From contig JAIOPD010000076.1 of NCBI GenBank assembly GCA_021414115.1, positions 1 through 33,742 on the forward strand: a stretch of 33,742 nucleotides of DNA. The letters are read 5' to 3'. The notes under the pieces were generated by a model. It had not been told where the DNA came from. It saw only the letters and a list, made by a program, of their open reading frames with translations, and searched no databases. The number at the start of each line of letters is the position of its first letter. Position 1 is the first letter of the stretch. The stretch comes from Planctomycetia bacterium. GTDB taxonomy: Bacteria > Planctomycetota > Planctomycetia > Pirellulales > UBA1268. A program made the translations under genes and the position numbers. Below, piece after piece: positions 8,187 to 19,969 of the stretch.

Positions 8187-9245
8187 ATGCCGATCTCGAG
8201 CGTGAAGCCAGGCTGCCAGTTTGCGAGTGACAACACGGCCCCGATGAGCACTGGGGCCTGGGAGGCGCTCGTCCAGGCCAACCGCGACTGCCAGTCGAGC
8301 TACGGCGACGACCCGTGGACGGCCCGGGCCTGCGATCTGATTCGCACGATCTTCGAATGCGACGCAGAGGTGTTCTTCGTCTTCAACGGCACGGCAGCCA
8401 ACTCGCTGGCCTTGGCCGCGATGTGCCAGTCGTACCACGCGATCCTCTGCCACGAGATCGCCCACGTGGAGACCGACGAGTGCGGAGCCCCTGAGTTTTT
8501 CTCCAACGGCACCAAACTCCTCCTGCTTACCGGCGACGGCGGCAAGCTCTCTCCTGACGGGATCACGCACGCCGTCGAACGACGTCGTGATATCCACTAT
8601 CCGAAGCCCCGCGTGGTGAGCGTCACCCAGGCCACGGAGCTGTCGACGGTCTACTCCATCGACGAACTGGCCGCGATCAGCGATACGTGCCGCCGCCACG
8701 GCCTGCGGCTCCACATGGACGGGGCCCGGTTCGCCAATGCGGTGGCCGCGCTCGACGTCCCGCCGCGGAAGATCACCTGGGAACTGGGGGTGGACGTGCT
8801 CTGCCTCGGCGGCACGAAGAACGGCATGGGTGTGGGCGACGCCGTGGTGTTCTTCAACAAGGGCCTCGCCGACGAGTTCGCCTACCGCTGCAAGCAGGCC
8901 GGGCAACTGGCCTCCAAGATGCGCTATCTGACGGCCCCATGGGTGGGGCTGCTCGACAATGGCTCGTGGCTCGACAACGCCCGCCGGGCCAACGCAGCCG
9001 CGGCCCGCCTGGAGCAGGGCTTCCGCGTGATCCCCGCGATCGAGGTGCTCGGCCACCGGCAGGCCAATGCCGTCTTCGCCCGGCTGCCCGACGCCCTCGC
9101 CGCGGCGCTGCGGGCCAAGGGCTGGAAGTTCTACGACTTCATCGGCTCCGGCGGCAGCCGCTTCATGTGCTCCTGGGCGGTCACCGACGCCGACATCGAC
9201 AGCTTGCTCGCCGACGCCAGGGAAGCGGCCGGGACGGCCCGTTGA
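8187..9245 (+). CDS. ltaE: Low-specificity L-threonine aldolase / beta-eliminating lyase family
   Basis: Fold-type I PLP enzyme of 352 residues. The N-terminus SDNTAP, the region SYGDDPWT, and HMDGAR (Asp178 for the pyridine nitrogen) are all as in LtaE. The Schiff-base lysine is Lys211 in LGGTKNGMG. The family cleaves L-threonine or L-allo-threonine to glycine and acetaldehyde. GAGGAATCC precedes the ATG, giving an adequate ribosome site. It is probably co-transcribed with the AraC-type regulator, though a functional link is not obvious. Related beta-eliminating lyases acting on other beta-hydroxy amino acids cannot be excluded. Confidence 0.9.
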   Translation: MPISSVKPGCQFASDNTAPMSTGAWEALVQANRDCQSSYGDDPWTARACDLIRTIFECDAEVFFVFNGTAANSLALAAMCQSYHAILCHEIAHVETDECGAPEFFSNGTKLLLLTGDGGKLSPDGITHAVERRRDIHYPKPRVVSVTQATELSTVYSIDELAAISDTCRRHGLRLHMDGARFANAVAALDVPPRKITWELGVDVLCLGGTKNGMGVGDAVVFFNKGLADEFAYRCKQAGQLASKMRYLTAPWVGLLDNGSWLDNARRANAAAARLEQGFRVIPAIEVLGHRQANAVFARLPDALAAALRAKGWKFYDFIGSGGSRFMCSWAVTDADIDSLLADAREAAGTAR

Positions 9246-9265: not shown

Positions 9266-9372
9266 GGGAAGCCCGGAGCGCGAGCGACGGGTAGACGGGC
9301 GGCGACCGCGTTCGTGCCGCGGAGCGACGTGAGGTGGAGACCGTAGTCCCCGCGCTCGCGCTTGGGGCTTCC
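9266..9372. repeat. 107-bp palindromic repeat family A, copy 1
   Basis: Imperfect inverted repeat with arms at 9266-9291 (begins GGGAAGCCCGGAGCGCGAGC) and 9348-9372 (ends GCGCTTGGGGCTTCC). The arms match at about 22 of 26 positions when one is reverse-complemented. A second copy of identical length is at 13131-13237. Both full copies sit between convergent genes. Likely a bidirectional terminator or REP/MITE-type element. Confidence 0.8.
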
Positions 9373-9402
9373 CCAGCAACCGACACCATCGAGCACGCGC
9401 GA

Positions 9403-9534
9403 GGGGCTGCCCGTGCCCCGAGAGCCGGGCTCGGCGGCCAGCGAAGCCAGGATGGCGAAGCGCAGCCGGCGTGCAGAGAGCGAAGCCCAGGATGGGCGCA
9501 GCGAACGTCCGGCTCTCGGGGCACGGGCAGCCCC
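9403..9534. repeat. Compound palindromic element family B (perfect 26-bp arms)
   Basis: The arm at 9403-9428 (begins GGGGCTGCCCGTGCCCCGAG) is the exact reverse complement of 9509-9534. The 80-bp interior holds two near-identical units, each with a small hairpin core (GCCAGGATGGC near 9437 and GCCCAGGATGGGC near 9484), both preceded by AGCGAA. Together with family A it fills the 339-bp gap between ltaE and the PiT gene. No coding potential is convincing here. Confidence 0.8.
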
Positions 9535-9584
9535 GACCCACCACTCGGGCCCCCGTCAGGCGCTCCACTACAGTCAGACAAGCT

Positions 9585-11078
9585 CTAGCCGGTGACGAGC
9601 GTCGCCAGCCAGTAGATCGCGGCGGCAAGGAGCATCGCCACGGGCAGCGTGAGAATCCAGGCCAGCGCGATCGTACGGACCGTGCTCCCCTGGACGCCCG
9701 ACCCGTTGGCCCACATCGTGCCGGCAACGCCGCTGGAGAGCACGTGCGTCGTGCTCACCGGCATGCCGAAGCCGTCGGCGAGGCCAATCGTGCCGGCGGC
9801 CACAAGTTCGGCGACGCCCCCCTGCGCGTAGGTGAGGTGCGTCTTGCCGATCTTCTCGCCCACCGTCACGACGATCCGCTCCCAGCCCACCATCGTACCC
9901 AGGCCGAGGCACAGCGCCACGCCCCACTTCACCCACTCGGGAACGTATTCCACCGGCGTCGAAAGCCGGCCGGCGATGCTCTGGAGGATCTGCCGGCGAT
10001 CCGCGCTCATCCGTCCGCCGAATTCCCGCAGGAGCGTCCGCACCGTGGTGCCGAGCTCCACGAGCTGCGTCCGCACCGTCCAGCGGGATTCGGAGTCGAG
10101 TTCGTGAAATCCATCGCGGCCCTCGAGCGTGGCCACGACCGACCTGGCCAGCGGCAGCGGGTCGAGCGTCGCGAGCACGGGATCGCCGCCTTCCAGCGCA
10201 TCAATCACCTCGTGGGCCAGGCCGTATTCGACCGCTGCCTCCGCCGCGAATGCCGTGGAGCGGGACAGCCGCTCCACGCGGCTGTTGGCGACGTGCTGCT
10301 CCTTGAGGGCTCCGATCATGCTGGCGAGCGGCTGTTCCTGGAGCTGCACCTCCAGTTCCTTCGCCGCCGCGATCGCCCCGGCGATCTCGTGGGAGCCGGC
10401 ACCGAGGTCGAGGGCATAGGTGGCAGGCACGATCCCGATCAGAACGAGCATGATCAGGCCCATCCCCTTCTGGCCGTCGTTGGAGCCGTGCGCGAAGCTC
10501 ACGCCGGTGCAAGTGCCGATCAACAAGAGCCGCACCCACCACGGCGGCGGCTCTTCACCGGCTGGCGGTTCGTAGAGTTTTGGCGAGCGGATCAGGGCCT
10601 TGCAGAGCAGAAGCATCCCGGCCGCCAGGCCGAAGCCGATCACCGGTGAGAGCAGCAGCGCCATCATGACCTCGGTGACCTTGTGCCAGTTGAGGCCCTT
10701 GAAGACCGCGCCGTGTTCCATCCATGCATTCATCATGCCCACGCCCATGATCGAGCCGATCAGTGAGTGCGAACTGGAGGCGGGCAGCCCGCGGTACCAG
10801 GTGGCGAAGTTCCAGATGATGGCCGCCAGCAGGAGCGCAAGCACCATCGCCAAGCCGCGGCCGGTCTTGATGTTGACCAGCAGGTCGACCGGGAGCAGGT
10901 GCACGATGCTGAACGCCACGCCGATGCCTCCGACGTGCACGCCGATGAAGTTCCAAATCCCCGACCAGACGACAGCCGCGCAGGGGCACGTGCGTGTGCC
11001 TACCTCCGGAATGACCGCAGGGTAGGGCCGGCCCCGCGGCCCCACAAGAACCCGCGGACGACCACATCGAATCCTCAC
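9585..11078 (-). CDS. pit: PiT-family inorganic phosphate transporter, N-terminus missing (possible pseudogene)
   Basis: Membrane phosphate:cation symporter family. Clear PiT sequence starts at AAVVWSGIWNFIGVHVGG, about residue 35 of the open frame. It includes PASSSHSLIGSIMG, the second family signature SFAHGSNDGQKGMGL, a central hydrophilic insert of about 150 residues, and GMPVSTTHVLSS near the C-terminus. What precedes it (MRIRCGRPRVLVGPRGRP...) is Arg/Pro-rich, not hydrophobic, and lacks the first repeat's signature (normally NGFHDxAN-like in TM1). About 45-50 residues of the normal N-terminus are therefore absent. The ATG at 11078 is only the longest open start. Without TM1 the protein is unlikely to transport normally. 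It is divergent from the damaged M3 peptidase gene and convergent with ltaE. Confidence 0.8.
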   Translation of the reverse strand: MRIRCGRPRVLVGPRGRPYPAVIPEVGTRTCPCAAVVWSGIWNFIGVHVGGIGVAFSIVHLLPVDLLVNIKTGRGLAMVLALLLAAIIWNFATWYRGLPASSSHSLIGSIMGVGMMNAWMEHGAVFKGLNWHKVTEVMMALLLSPVIGFGLAAGMLLLCKALIRSPKLYEPPAGEEPPPWWVRLLLIGTCTGVSFAHGSNDGQKGMGLIMLVLIGIVPATYALDLGAGSHEIAGAIAAAKELEVQLQEQPLASMIGALKEQHVANSRVERLSRSTAFAAEAAVEYGLAHEVIDALEGGDPVLATLDPLPLARSVVATLEGRDGFHELDSESRWTVRTQLVELGTTVRTLLREFGGRMSADRRQILQSIAGRLSTPVEYVPEWVKWGVALCLGLGTMVGWERIVVTVGEKIGKTHLTYAQGGVAELVAAGTIGLADGFGMPVSTTHVLSSGVAGTMWANGSGVQGSTVRTIALAWILTLPVAMLLAAAIYWLATLVTG

Positions 11079-11128
11079 ATGGCGACACCCCTCGCTGTCG
11101 CAACGCCGCTCTCCGGTATCCTGCTGAC

Positions 11129-11770
11129 ATGAGAACCCGACGCTTGCCAGAGGTGTTCCCCGGTCGGGCCATCGTCACCGCCTGTATGCTGGTCGTCATG
11201 GCCGCCACCGCCGCTCTTCGAGCAGACGACGAGAATCCCCTGACACACCGCTGGTCGGGCCCCTACGGCGGTGTGCCGCCGTTCGACCGGGTGCGGGTCG
11301 AGCACTTCGAGCCGGCCCTCGAGGCGGGCATGGCCGAGCAGCGGGCCGCCATCGAGCGGATCGCCGCCGATCCCGCCCCGCCGACGTTTGCCAACACCGT
11401 TGCCGCGTACGAGCGATCAGGCCGCATGCTCGACCGGGTGATGACGGTCTATGACGTCTTCTCCGGCCGATGCGACGGCCAAGACCGAGCTCGCCGCGAT
11501 CAACCAGGAGCTCGCCACGCTGCACACCGCGTTTTCGCAGCACGTGCTCGAGGAGGAAAACGGGACGGCGGTCTTCTTCGGCGCCGAAGCCGACCTCGCG
11601 GGCCTGCCCGAGGCGGCGCGGCGTGCCGCGGCGGAGGCGGCCGAGGAACGCGGCCAGTTGGGCCGGTGGGCGATCCCCAACACGCGGTCGACCGTCGAGC
11701 CCTTTCTCACCTTTGCCGATCGCCGCGACCTCCGCGAGCAGGTGTGGCGGATGTTCGTCGACCGCGGTGA
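11129..11770 (+). pseudogene. N-terminal fragment of frameshifted M3 family peptidase
   Basis: The first ~112 codons read as an exported M3 peptidase: a hydrophobic signal segment (AIVTACMLVVMAATAAL), then NPLTHRWSGPYGGVPPFDRV and AYERSGRMLDRVMTVYDVFSG. Meaningful homology ends at about 11464; the rest of this frame is out-of-phase translation. The protein continues in another frame (next entry). Relative to ordinary M3 peptidases of this type, about 55-60 residues that should follow VYDVFSG are missing at the junction, so this is an internal deletion that also shifted the frame. Either a true pseudogene or an assembly error. Confidence 0.75.
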
Positions 11771-13073
11771 TCGGGGCGGCGCCACCGACAACAACGCCGT
11801 GGTGACGAAGATCCTCGCCCTCCGAGCCCGCCGGGCGAAGCTCCTGGGCTTCGCGACGCATGCCCATTGGCGGCTCGAAGACTCGATGGCCAAGGCGCCC
11901 GACAGCGCGGTCGAGCTGATGGAGGCCCTGTGGCAGCCGGCCGTGGCCCGGGTCCGCGAGGAGGTGGCCGACATGCAGGCCATCGCCGACGCCGAGGGGG
12001 CTGGGATCACGATCGCCGCCTGGGACTACCGGTATTACGCCGAGAAGGTCCGCAAGGCGAAGTACGACCTCGATGACGCGGAGCTCACGCCCTACCTGCA
12101 ACTCGACAACCTTCGCGACGGGATGTTTCTCGTGGCAGAGAAGCTCTTCGGACTGCGGCTGGTGCCAATCGCGGCCGGAACCGTGCCCGTCTACCACCCC
12201 GACGTCCGCGTCTGGGAAGTGCGACGCGGCGACGGCGCGACCGTCGGCCTCTGGTACTTCGATCCCTTCGCCCGCACGGACAAGCGATCCGGGGCGTGGA
12301 TGAGCGACTACCGCGCGCAGGAACGGTTCGACGGCGCCGTGCTCCCGATCGTCTCCAACAACTGCAACTTCGTGAAGCCGGCGGAAGGCGAGCGGGCGGT
12401 CGTGAGCTGGGACGACGCCACGACGCTGTTCCACGAGTTCGGCCACGCGCTCCACGGCCTCTGCTCCGACGTGGATCATCCCTCGCTCTCCGGCACACGG
12501 GTGGCCCGCGACTACGTCGAACTGCCCTCGCAGCTCCTCGAACACTGGCTCTCGACGCCCGAAATCCTGGAGCGGTTCGCGGTGCACCGCGACACGGGAA
12601 AGCCCATCCCGCCCGACCTCGTGGCACGAGTCCAGCGGGCGGCGACGTTCGGCGCAGGCTTTCGCACCGTGGAGTTTCTGGCGAGCGCCATCGTCGACAT
12701 GAAACTCCATCTCACGGGCGACACGCCGATCGATCCCGAGCGGTTCGAGCGGCAGACACTCGAGACGCTCGGCATGCCGGTCGAGATCGTGATGCGGCAC
12801 CGGACGCCGCATTTCAACCACATCTTCGCCGACGACGGCTACTCGGCCGGATACTACAGCTATCTCTGGTCCGACATGCTCACGGCCGATGCGTGGGAGG
12901 CGTTCACCGAGGCGGGCGGCCCGTGGGACGCGGCCGTCGCGGAGCGGCTCCGCCGTCACGTGCTCTCGAAGGGCAACACGATCGACCCTGACGAGGGCTA
13001 CCGGGCCTTCCGCGGCCGGAATCCCTCGGTCGACGCGCTGCTGCGGAAACGCGGCTTCGCCCCACCGCGGTAG
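11451..13073 (+). CDS. M3 family metallopeptidase (peptidyl-dipeptidase Dcp-like), catalytic fragment
   Basis: Zinc oligopeptidase catalytic part, 540 residues as an open frame; true homology begins near ADATAKTELAAINQELATLH (codons from about 11466). The active site TTLFHEFGHALHGL gives HEFGH as the HExxH motif, with a downstream glutamate region ELPSQLLEHW. The C-terminus FNHIFADDGYSAGYYSYLW is the substrate-binding loop of Dcp-type enzymes. Dcp proteins are about 680-710 residues; this fragment plus the N-terminal piece sums to about 650, which supports a 55-60 residue deletion. As it stands it has no signal peptide and no start that makes biological sense: the ATG at 11451 lies inside the upstream fragment. 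Probably non-functional unless the junction is an assembly error. Confidence 0.8.
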   Translation: MTSSPADATAKTELAAINQELATLHTAFSQHVLEEENGTAVFFGAEADLAGLPEAARRAAAEAAEERGQLGRWAIPNTRSTVEPFLTFADRRDLREQVWRMFVDRGDRGGATDNNAVVTKILALRARRAKLLGFATHAHWRLEDSMAKAPDSAVELMEALWQPAVARVREEVADMQAIADAEGAGITIAAWDYRYYAEKVRKAKYDLDDAELTPYLQLDNLRDGMFLVAEKLFGLRLVPIAAGTVPVYHPDVRVWEVRRGDGATVGLWYFDPFARTDKRSGAWMSDYRAQERFDGAVLPIVSNNCNFVKPAEGERAVVSWDDATTLFHEFGHALHGLCSDVDHPSLSGTRVARDYVELPSQLLEHWLSTPEILERFAVHRDTGKPIPPDLVARVQRAATFGAGFRTVEFLASAIVDMKLHLTGDTPIDPERFERQTLETLGMPVEIVMRHRTPHFNHIFADDGYSAGYYSYLWSDMLTADAWEAFTEAGGPWDAAVAERLRRHVLSKGNTIDPDEGYRAFRGRNPSVDALLRKRGFAPPR

Positions 13074-13130
13074 TCCACGAGCCCGCGTGATTGCGTGTTC
13101 ATCGCCGTCGTGTCCTCGGATGCTCGGGAC

Positions 13131-13237
13131 GGGAAGCCCGGAGCGCAAGCGACGGGTATACGGGTGACCTCCGTGAAAAGAGCGCGGAGCGAAGCGGGGT
13201 GGAGGACGTATACCCCGCGCTAGCGCTTGGGGCTTCC
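13131..13237. repeat. 107-bp palindromic repeat family A, copy 2
   Basis: Arms at 13131-13156 (begins GGGAAGCCCGGAGCGCAAGC) and 13213-13237 (ends GCGCTTGGGGCTTCC), with further pairing inside through GGGTATACG and CGTATACCCC. Same length as copy 1 at 9266-9372 and colinear with it. It again lies between two convergent genes (M3 peptidase and DUF1501). Confidence 0.82.
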
Positions 13238-13271: not shown

Positions 13272-14708
13272 TCAGGAAAGAATGCCCTTCACGATCTTCC
13301 CGTGCACGTCGGTCAGCCGGTAGCGGCGGCCCTGAAACTTGTACGTCAGCCGCTCGTGGTCGATGCCGAGCAGGTGCAGCAGCGTGGCGTGGAAGTCGTG
13401 CACGTGCACGCCGTCCTTCACGATGTTGTAGCCGTAGTCGTCGGTCTCGCCGTAGGTGGTGCCCGGCTTCACGCCGCCACCCGCCATCCAGATCGTGAAG
13501 CACCGCGGGTGGTGATCGCGGCCGAAGTCGCTGCCCGGCTTGTAGAGCCCCTGGCAATAGTTCGTGCGGCCAAACTCGCCCCCCCAGACCACGAGCGTGT
13601 CGTCGAGCATCCCGCGGGCGGCGAGGTCCTTGACGAGCGCGGCAGCCGGCTGGTCGGTCTGTTTTGCTTCCCTGGCAATGCCCCCCTTGAGCCCACCGTG
13701 GTGGTCCCAGTCCTGGTGGTAGAGCTGGATGAACCGCACACCCCGCTCGGCAAGCCGCCGGGCGAGCACGCAGTTGGCCGCGAACGTGCCGGGGTCCTTG
13801 GCGTCGGGGCCGTACATGTCGAGCACGTGCTGCGGCTCGTCGGAGAAGTCGGTCACCTCCGGCACGCTGGCCTGCATCCGGAAGGCCATCTCGTAGTTGG
13901 CGATCCGGGCCGTGATCTCGGCATCGGGCGTGCCGGCGAACTGGTGCTCGTGCAGTTGCCGCAGGCCGTCGAGCAACTGGCGACGATTCTCCGTCGAGAC
14001 GCCCGGCGGGTTGTTCACGTAGAGCACCGGATCGGCTCCGGAGCGAAACCGCACGGCCTGGTGCTTCGTCGGCAGAAAGCCCGCGCCCCAGAGATGGCTC
14101 ATGAGCGGCTGGCCGCCCTTGTTTTTCGTGATCAGGACGACGAACGATGGCAGGTCATCATGCTCGTTGCCGAGGCCGTAATCGAGCCAGGCGCCGATAC
14201 TCGGCCGACCCGGAATCTGATTGCCGCTCTGCATGAACGTCACGCCGGGTCCGTGGTTGATGCTCTCGGTGTACATCGTGCGGATGAAGCAGAGCCGATC
14301 GGCCACCTCGGCCGTGTGGGGCAACAGTTCCGAGAGCCAGGCGCCGCTCTGGCCGTATTGCGAGAACGAGAATGGCGAGCCCACCAGTGGAATCGAGCTC
14401 TGATTGCCCGACATCCCGGTGAGCCGCTGGCCGCCCCGGACGCTGTCGGGCAGTTGCTCGCCCGTCTTCTCGACGAGCAGCGGCTTGCGGTCGTAAAGAT
14501 CGAGCTGCGACGGGCCGCCCGACTGGAAGAGGTAGATCACCCGCTTCGCTCGCGGCGCGTGGTGAAAGCCGCCGAGCACGCCGCCGGCCCCTTCGGTAGC
14601 CGGCTCCGCCACGGCGGACCGTCCGAGCATCTCGGCGAGCGCGAGGCCGCCGAAGCCCAGGCCGAACGAGTTGAGCCAGTCGCGCCTGTTGATCGGATGT
14701 GGACTCAT
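13272..14708 (-). CDS. DUF1501 domain-containing protein (sulfatase-like, Tat-exported)
   Basis: Protein of 478 residues with a twin-arginine-like start (INRRDWLNSFGLGFGGLAL) and the standard DUF1501 landmarks: RAKRVIYLFQSGGPSQLDLYD, GPSIGAWLDYGLG-like (here GRPSIGAWLDYGLG), VLARRLAERGVRFIQLYHQDWDHH (split here only for description), WGGEFGRTN and DHHPRCFTIWMAGGG. The family has an alkaline-phosphatase/sulfatase-like fold and is expanded in planctomycetes; its biochemical role is unproven. Its start codon overlaps the stop of the preceding DUF1549/DUF1553 gene by 4 nt (ATGA at 14705-14708), implying translational coupling and a shared extracytoplasmic task. Confidence 0.95.
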   Translation of the reverse strand: MSPHPINRRDWLNSFGLGFGGLALAEMLGRSAVAEPATEGAGGVLGGFHHAPRAKRVIYLFQSGGPSQLDLYDRKPLLVEKTGEQLPDSVRGGQRLTGMSGNQSSIPLVGSPFSFSQYGQSGAWLSELLPHTAEVADRLCFIRTMYTESINHGPGVTFMQSGNQIPGRPSIGAWLDYGLGNEHDDLPSFVVLITKNKGGQPLMSHLWGAGFLPTKHQAVRFRSGADPVLYVNNPPGVSTENRRQLLDGLRQLHEHQFAGTPDAEITARIANYEMAFRMQASVPEVTDFSDEPQHVLDMYGPDAKDPGTFAANCVLARRLAERGVRFIQLYHQDWDHHGGLKGGIAREAKQTDQPAAALVKDLAARGMLDDTLVVWGGEFGRTNYCQGLYKPGSDFGRDHHPRCFTIWMAGGGVKPGTTYGETDDYGYNIVKDGVHVHDFHATLLHLLGIDHERLTYKFQGRRYRLTDVHGKIVKGILS

Positions 14709-19786: not shown

Positions 19787-19810
19787 AAGCCAGGCCATGC
19801 GGTAAACCCA

Positions 19811-19835
19811 GGAAGCCCGGAGCGGAAGCGACGGG
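19811..19835 (+). repeat. Half copy of palindromic repeat family A
   Basis: GGAAGCCCGGAGCGGAAGCG followed by ACGGG matches the left arm of the 107-bp elements at 9266 and 13131, but the right arm is absent. It lies in the 183-bp gap between the TolC-like gene and the adaptor gene. A solo arm or decayed copy. Confidence 0.65.
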
Positions 19836-19969
19836 ATCGGCATGGCGGGATTTTTCAAGCATCAATAAGTCCAAAGATCCGTCACTCATTCGTCAGATGC
19901 GGCAGACGGGCGGTAACATGATGGATGCCGCGGTCACGCAGGCCCGGCCCTCTTTCGTTGTAGAGCCTC

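Follow-up and report, generated by a model that had tools for sequence, protein, structure and literature searches.

Several hundred REPINs of a planctomycete and the single-copy tyrosine transposase, overlooked by standard databases, that very probably spreads them

The doublet plan of bacterial REP sequences, in which two inverted REPs make up one REPIN, was set out by Bertels and Rainey (2011) for Pseudomonas fluorescens SBW25 (PMC3116915): the doublets there have conserved ends, a less conserved spacer and a predicted hairpin, they occur in hundreds of extragenic copies with singlets as remnants, and their cognate RAYT is itself flanked by the repeat. In Escherichia coli, where two types of REP are combined and bound by TnpA-REP (group 2; 4er8), the REPs have a foot tetranucleotide, and an AA-GC mismatch in mid-stem is needed for activity (PMC8266576). 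Class 3 TnpA-Y1 proteins carry a Y----Q motif, are found mainly in Planctomycetes, Acidobacteria and Proteobacteria, and have high-copy flanking hairpins (PMC6006769), which are atypical and, by the count of Quentin et al. (2018), reach about 600 copies in Solibacter usitatus (PMC6006769); the proteins have been described as rare, as a possible intermediate between IS200 elements and REPtrons, and as calling for experiments (PMC6006769). Finally, short extragenic palindromic repeats tagged with GTAG/CGTC have been described from phyla that include Planctomycetes (Di Nocera et al. 2013, PMC3733652).

The repeat described here lies in a window of 33,742 nucleotides (the whole stretch of DNA that was analysed) from a planctomycete draft genome of 4.35 Mb (144 contigs, 95% complete); the nearest named record to a gene of the window, at 91% protein identity, is a freshwater-type MAG labelled Planctomicrobium piriforme AH-03may19-215 (G017). 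With high probability, this element of 106/107 bp is a non-autonomous REPIN on which a RAYT-type Y1 HUH nuclease acts in trans, the product of a single-copy gene in the same genome. The features of the window are:

9266..9372, plus strand: REPIN copy 1, conserved unit 9267–9372; flanking genes convergent
9267..9291, plus strand: left REP hairpin of copy 1, GGAAG-CCCGGAGC-GCGA-GCGACGGG, from the sequence and the descriptor scan
9348..9372, minus strand: right REP hairpin of copy 1, minus-strand reading GGAAG-CCCCAAGC-GCGA-GCGCGGGG, from the sequence and the descriptor scan
13131..13237, plus strand: REPIN copy 2, conserved unit 13132–13237; flanking genes convergent
13132..13156, plus strand: left REP hairpin of copy 2, loop GCAA, from the descriptor scan
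13213..13237, minus strand: right REP hairpin of copy 2, loop GCTA, from the descriptor scan
19811..19835, plus strand: solo left-type REP, loop GGAA, without a right partner; flanking genes tandem

An earlier, sequence-only reading of this DNA had called two colinear 107-bp copies and a lone left arm, and all three are real. The two copies are identical at 85/107 positions (left end 25/26, middle 36/54, right end 24/27), and the unit that is conserved falls one base short of the 107 bp called. As that reading had it, both copies lie between convergent genes: copy 1 between 8187–9245(+) and 9585–11078(−), and copy 2 between 11451–13073(+) and 13272–14708(−). The four strands of the two copies, folded as single strands, give z-scores of −3.7 to −7.9. 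In the whole 4.35 Mb, the 14-mer left-arm seed GGAAGCCCGGAGCG has 273 exact matches (136 + 137) and the reversed pattern none, and these counts, together with the folding scores, exclude chance. The genome-wide count had been proposed as a check on the repeat, with the existence of these copies only as the finding that would tell against it; at 273 exact seeds, the copies in the window are far from alone.

Two further observations concern the window. The solo left REP and another at L032:13082–13143 share about 60 bp from the REP onward (19806–19867 in the window) at 90% identity, and this common unit is perhaps half of an older REPIN subfamily. A second palindromic repeat, unrelated-looking and about 132 bp long, lies at 9403–9534; its arms, GGGGCTGCCCGTGCCCC, have 164 exact matches in the genome, the repeat is found within about 100 bp of 15 of the 73 full REPINs, and 18 of 22 congeners have it, with or without this RAYT.

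The 35-residue peptides to which the sequence-only reading drew attention are real translations, identical between the copies at 26 of 35 positions. They provide no evidence of coding, since three frames are open in 66–68 of the 72 full copies and neither 106 nor 107 bp is divisible by three; a protein-coding reading of the repeat is not supported, and it is a G+C-rich hairpin that yields such peptides as by-products. The accompanying warning, that such repeats may seed false hypothetical proteins in annotations, is a reasonable one: the peptides translate a non-coding repeat, and repeats of this kind can be mistaken for small proteins.

The anatomy of the element was drawn from 0.82 Mb of sampled stretches, chosen around seed-bearing contigs, in which 63 near-complete copies were first gathered, most commonly 106 and 107 bp in length. 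About 25 bp are near-invariant at each end, and the middle is variable (61 aligned copies). Each arm is a 25-nt hairpin composed of a GAAG foot, an 8-bp stem with a tandem mismatch in mid-stem, and a GNNA tetraloop; the mismatch is a tandem G·A in the left REP and AA/GC in the right REP, which is read on the opposite strand. A descriptor of this hairpin (AAG, a 7–10-bp stem with at most 2 mismatches or 1 bulge, and a GNNA loop) finds 161 sites in the 0.82 Mb, against 6 in the reversed sequence, and in the window it finds exactly the five arms, the solo arm at 19811 among them. The foot-to-foot spacing of inverted REP pairs is almost only 101–102 bp. Two inverted, non-identical REP hairpins on either side of a variable spacer are the layout of a REPIN, and the further hallmarks of such elements are found here as well: conserved ends on the inverted REPs, a high and mostly extragenic copy number, and a RAYT gene flanked by the same REPs. 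Among the roles proposed from the sequence, that of a REP element thus stands, the repeat being REP-based, present in hundreds of copies and accompanied by a RAYT in the genome.

In this genome it is the sequence of the ends that is conserved. The arms are near-invariant, none of 16 pairs is changed on both sides, and RNAalifold applied to the copies of this genome places pairing at the ends only; it is the REP at each end that is kept, not the middle of a long hairpin. In full REPINs, conservation continues for a few bases past the arms, where CTCG precedes them and (T/C)GA follows (position −1 is G in 83%, +2 is G in 86% and +3 is A in 81%), and these flanks are possibly cleavage or joining sites. 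REPINs also occur in head-to-tail tandem arrays with a constant spacing per array (155, 127 or 135 bp; L040:3953–4368, L056:14827–15187, and others), as if duplicated along with a short flank. A comparison of REP identity in doublets and singlets was set aside as biased by detection.

The element shares with the SBW25 REPINs (PMC3116915) all of the features given above, from the inverted doublet and its predicted hairpin to the singlets and the RAYT flanked by the repeat. It differs from them in its foot, which is GAAG here and GTAG there, in the two REPs of the doublet, which are unlike each other here (G·A versus AA/GC mismatch), and in its RAYT, which is of another type (Y----Q). With the E. 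coli REP/BIME and TnpA-REP system it has in common the foot tetranucleotide, the combination of two REP types and a related protein fold, and the AA-GC mid-stem mismatch of the E. coli REP is identical in the right REP; however, E. coli group 2 combines a GTAG foot with Y---NP, whereas GAAG, Y----Q and a GNNA tetraloop are found here. Like the GTAG/CGTC-tagged repeats (PMC3733652), the element is short, tagged and extragenic, but its tag is GAAG in both arms (NAAG in congeners).

The protein that would serve the repeat is encoded elsewhere in the genome:

G000:C100:717–1238: RAYT-type gene, 174 aa, on a different contig from the window

A search for a RAYT-type transposase had been suggested along with the repeat, and the gene found in this genome is flanked by it, with a full REPIN upstream (558–664 of L161) and a half and two full REPINs downstream. 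Pfam Y1_Tnp (PF01797) has no match in the genome at E ≤ 0.001, because the RAYT is too divergent; in a relaxed genus-wide search with the same model it surfaced on contig C100 at E 0.087, and G014 gave a better match, located between two seed copies. The protein falls below the curated cut-offs of both PF01797 (14 of 23 bits; the homologue in G014 reaches 24.5 bits) and NF047646 (18 of 80 bits), and the NCBIfam REP transposase and IS200 models match it below cut-off only.

Across the nine RAYT proteins of the genus 40 columns are invariant, including H95-V-H97, Y163 and Q168, and in the tyrosine motif, YVRECQ, the glutamine is invariant at the fifth position after the tyrosine (Y----Q), in place of the Y---NP motif of class 2 TnpA-REP (groups 1–5 RAYTs), which is absent. 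The best PDB match of an AlphaFold2 model of the protein (pLDDT 75) is 4er8, the E. coli TnpA-REP bound to its REP (Foldseek, probability 1.00), the next 29 PDB matches are all Y1 transposases, and a second aligner (VIA-align) gives Z of 9.8–13.2 to Y1 transposases, above unrelated rows. With the HUH motif and the tyrosine conserved and a Y1 fold in the model, the protein is predicted to be a Y1 HUH transposase. It is like class 3 TnpA-Y1 (PMC6006769) in being an HUH nuclease with Y----Q, in its occurrence in Planctomycetes, in a conserved N-terminal part and in its high-copy flanking hairpins, but the published foot is CnGA and the foot here is GGAA/GAAG; furthermore, in the present genus the gene is single copy per genome, unlike class 3 as described. 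As the CnGA foot is absent, we liken the RAYT to the published motif description and call it class-3-like, rather than filing it as a member. Upstream of all nine RAYT genes is a conserved σ70-like promoter, TTGAC...TACACT (L161:690–716), and a palindrome-like TATAC/TGTAC-N4-GTACA between its boxes resembles an operator; given this motif, the RAYT may be regulated.

Protein searches recover one RAYT homologue in each of 9 of the 22 congeneric genomes, this one included (47–72% identical), and in 9/9 the gene lies between inverted REPs. At the nine loci the descriptor, which was designed on them, has 55 matches against 0 in the reversed control. The flanking REP sequence is lineage-specific and the stem pairing is kept, and the repeat populations range from about twenty to several hundred exact arms. 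A covariance model built on the REPIN of this genome finds at least 150 copies here, 132 in G017 and 127 in G014. In four further genomes with a RAYT it finds 27, 21, 10 and 3, one genome that lacks this RAYT has 2, and the remaining genomes have none: matches occur in 7/9 genomes with this RAYT and 1/13 without (Fisher p 0.0015, which overstates the independence of genomes that are related). The REPs beside other RAYTs are abundant in their own genomes, with 151 matches in G013 for the REP taken beside its own RAYT, 19 and 17 in G005 and G016, 27 and 17 in G008 and G010, and at most 6 outside their own genomes. Stem positions 4–8 are paired in 60/75 cells (15 REPs from eight genomes, bulged bases removed by hand), against a mean of 40 and a maximum of 52 when partners are shuffled. 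Compensatory changes in the arms, by which the sequence-only reading would have had the repeat judged, are therefore absent within the genome, where the arms hardly vary, but present across congeners.

The sister species has roughly 83–93% DNA identity to this one in aligned blocks, and the RAYT locus is orthologous in the two genomes, with a folD-like gene on one side and an ABC transporter on the other. The left REP of the sister differs from that of this genome at fixed positions (T in 24/28 versus 1/78; foot dinucleotide AG/AA versus GG), so the REPIN populations have turned over since the species separated. An expansion confined to the present lineage, to which a count of only 15 seeds in the sister had pointed, was rejected as an artefact of the seed, as the sister carries a variant REP and has 132 matches to the model. 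In planctomycetes at large, the wider RAYT protein family is present in 41 of 294 genomes, with at most 9 per genome; repeats lie on either side at most of the 19 distant loci that were inspected, among them L240 with GTAG as its foot or tag, and the AAGC-foot descriptor has few matches (6 in the 19 loci) because their feet differ. Six congeners (G002, G018, G008, G016, G001 and G021; L151–L156) encode a different protein, a canonical Y1_Tnp above the Pfam cut-off.

The placement of the repeat was assessed with a home-made codon-usage gene finder on the stretches around seed-bearing contigs. Only 10 of 101 elements lie inside predicted ORFs, and the 91 between predicted genes comprise 50 convergent, 36 tandem and 5 divergent positions, against 21%, 57% and 22% of background intergenic bases (p 6e-13 for the convergent enrichment). 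Counting positions relative to gene ends, another of the proposed checks, thus extends the convergent bias beyond the window. Such a bias, and the very stable folding of both strands, would suit a host-selected bidirectional terminator or mRNA 3′-end stabiliser between convergent genes, with any mobility long past, and a Rho-dependent or stabilising role is compatible with the data. However, a T-tract accompanies 0/73 full copies in either direction, and a tool scan finds none at the two window copies, so that the intrinsic terminator offered as a candidate role is not supported; the variable middle breaks the long hairpin, with no covariation inside the genome; and the ends turned over in step between the sister species, as replicating repeats would. 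We consider this explanation very unlikely. A structured RNA, also among the early candidates, finds no positive support, with no Rfam match at gathering thresholds and the same lack of covariation within the genome, where the arms are near-invariant.

Length, inverted ends and copy number also fit a classical MITE, which would descend from a DDE-type insertion sequence, end in inverted repeats and duplicate its target, but the flanks of the 73 full copies contain no target-site duplication (one of 512 offset/length combinations in the direct-repeat scan is marginally above controls), the ends are individually foldable, looped hairpins, and the gene that the repeats flank is a Y1 HUH gene instead; the MITE, another role suggested from the sequence, is in this strict sense extremely improbable. 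A domesticated RAYT, which binds the repeats (e.g., in repair or chromosome organisation) and no longer moves them, so that the repeats are its binding sites, is a variant of the main reading and not its opposite, as it is compatible with the anatomy. The single-copy gene in an orthologous position in the two sister genomes speaks for it, and TnpA-REP has been termed a domesticated transposase (PMC8266576); against it, one lineage-specific repeat type has taken the place of another across whole genomes of a single genus, for which copying or conversion of some kind is needed, and we regard domestication as unlikely, if worth keeping in mind.

For the REPIN served by a RAYT, our preferred reading, a mechanism can be proposed in which binding, cleavage and mobility are inferred from the biochemistry of TnpA-REP; the copying step and the precise points of excision are putative as well. 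In DNA made single-stranded by replication or transcription, each arm would fold into its GAAG foot, mismatched 8-bp stem and GNNA loop; the RAYT would recognise foot and hairpin, and nick beside the hairpin with the YVRECQ tyrosine; a copy of the REPIN would then enter a new extragenic site, where no target duplication would arise. Selection would remove insertions in genes and promoters, which is enough to explain the placement, and if the copies affect host mRNA ends or supercoiling at all, they would do so secondarily. The sister genome offers no clean case of an empty site, hence no insertion event is seen and the ends of the REPIN unit are putative. Against the reading stand the scores of the RAYT below curated cut-offs, and a foot of GAAG rather than GTAG or CGTC.

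REPIN/RAYT systems are a known kind, and what is new here is a variant with an under-studied type of transposase, one that curated Pfam and NCBIfam cut-offs miss. In this genus, nine related transposases can be compared whose cognate hairpins and repeat populations visibly differ, so that whether the protein defines the resident repeat population becomes directly testable. We give an even chance to the broader proposal that the nine single-copy, class-3-like RAYTs, each with its own REP and all sharing an NAAG foot, a mismatched or bulged stem and a GNNA tetraloop distinct from the GTAG/CGTC codes, form a natural series of largely orthogonal pairs; if true, these pairs would be a bridge between IS200 elements and REPIN systems.
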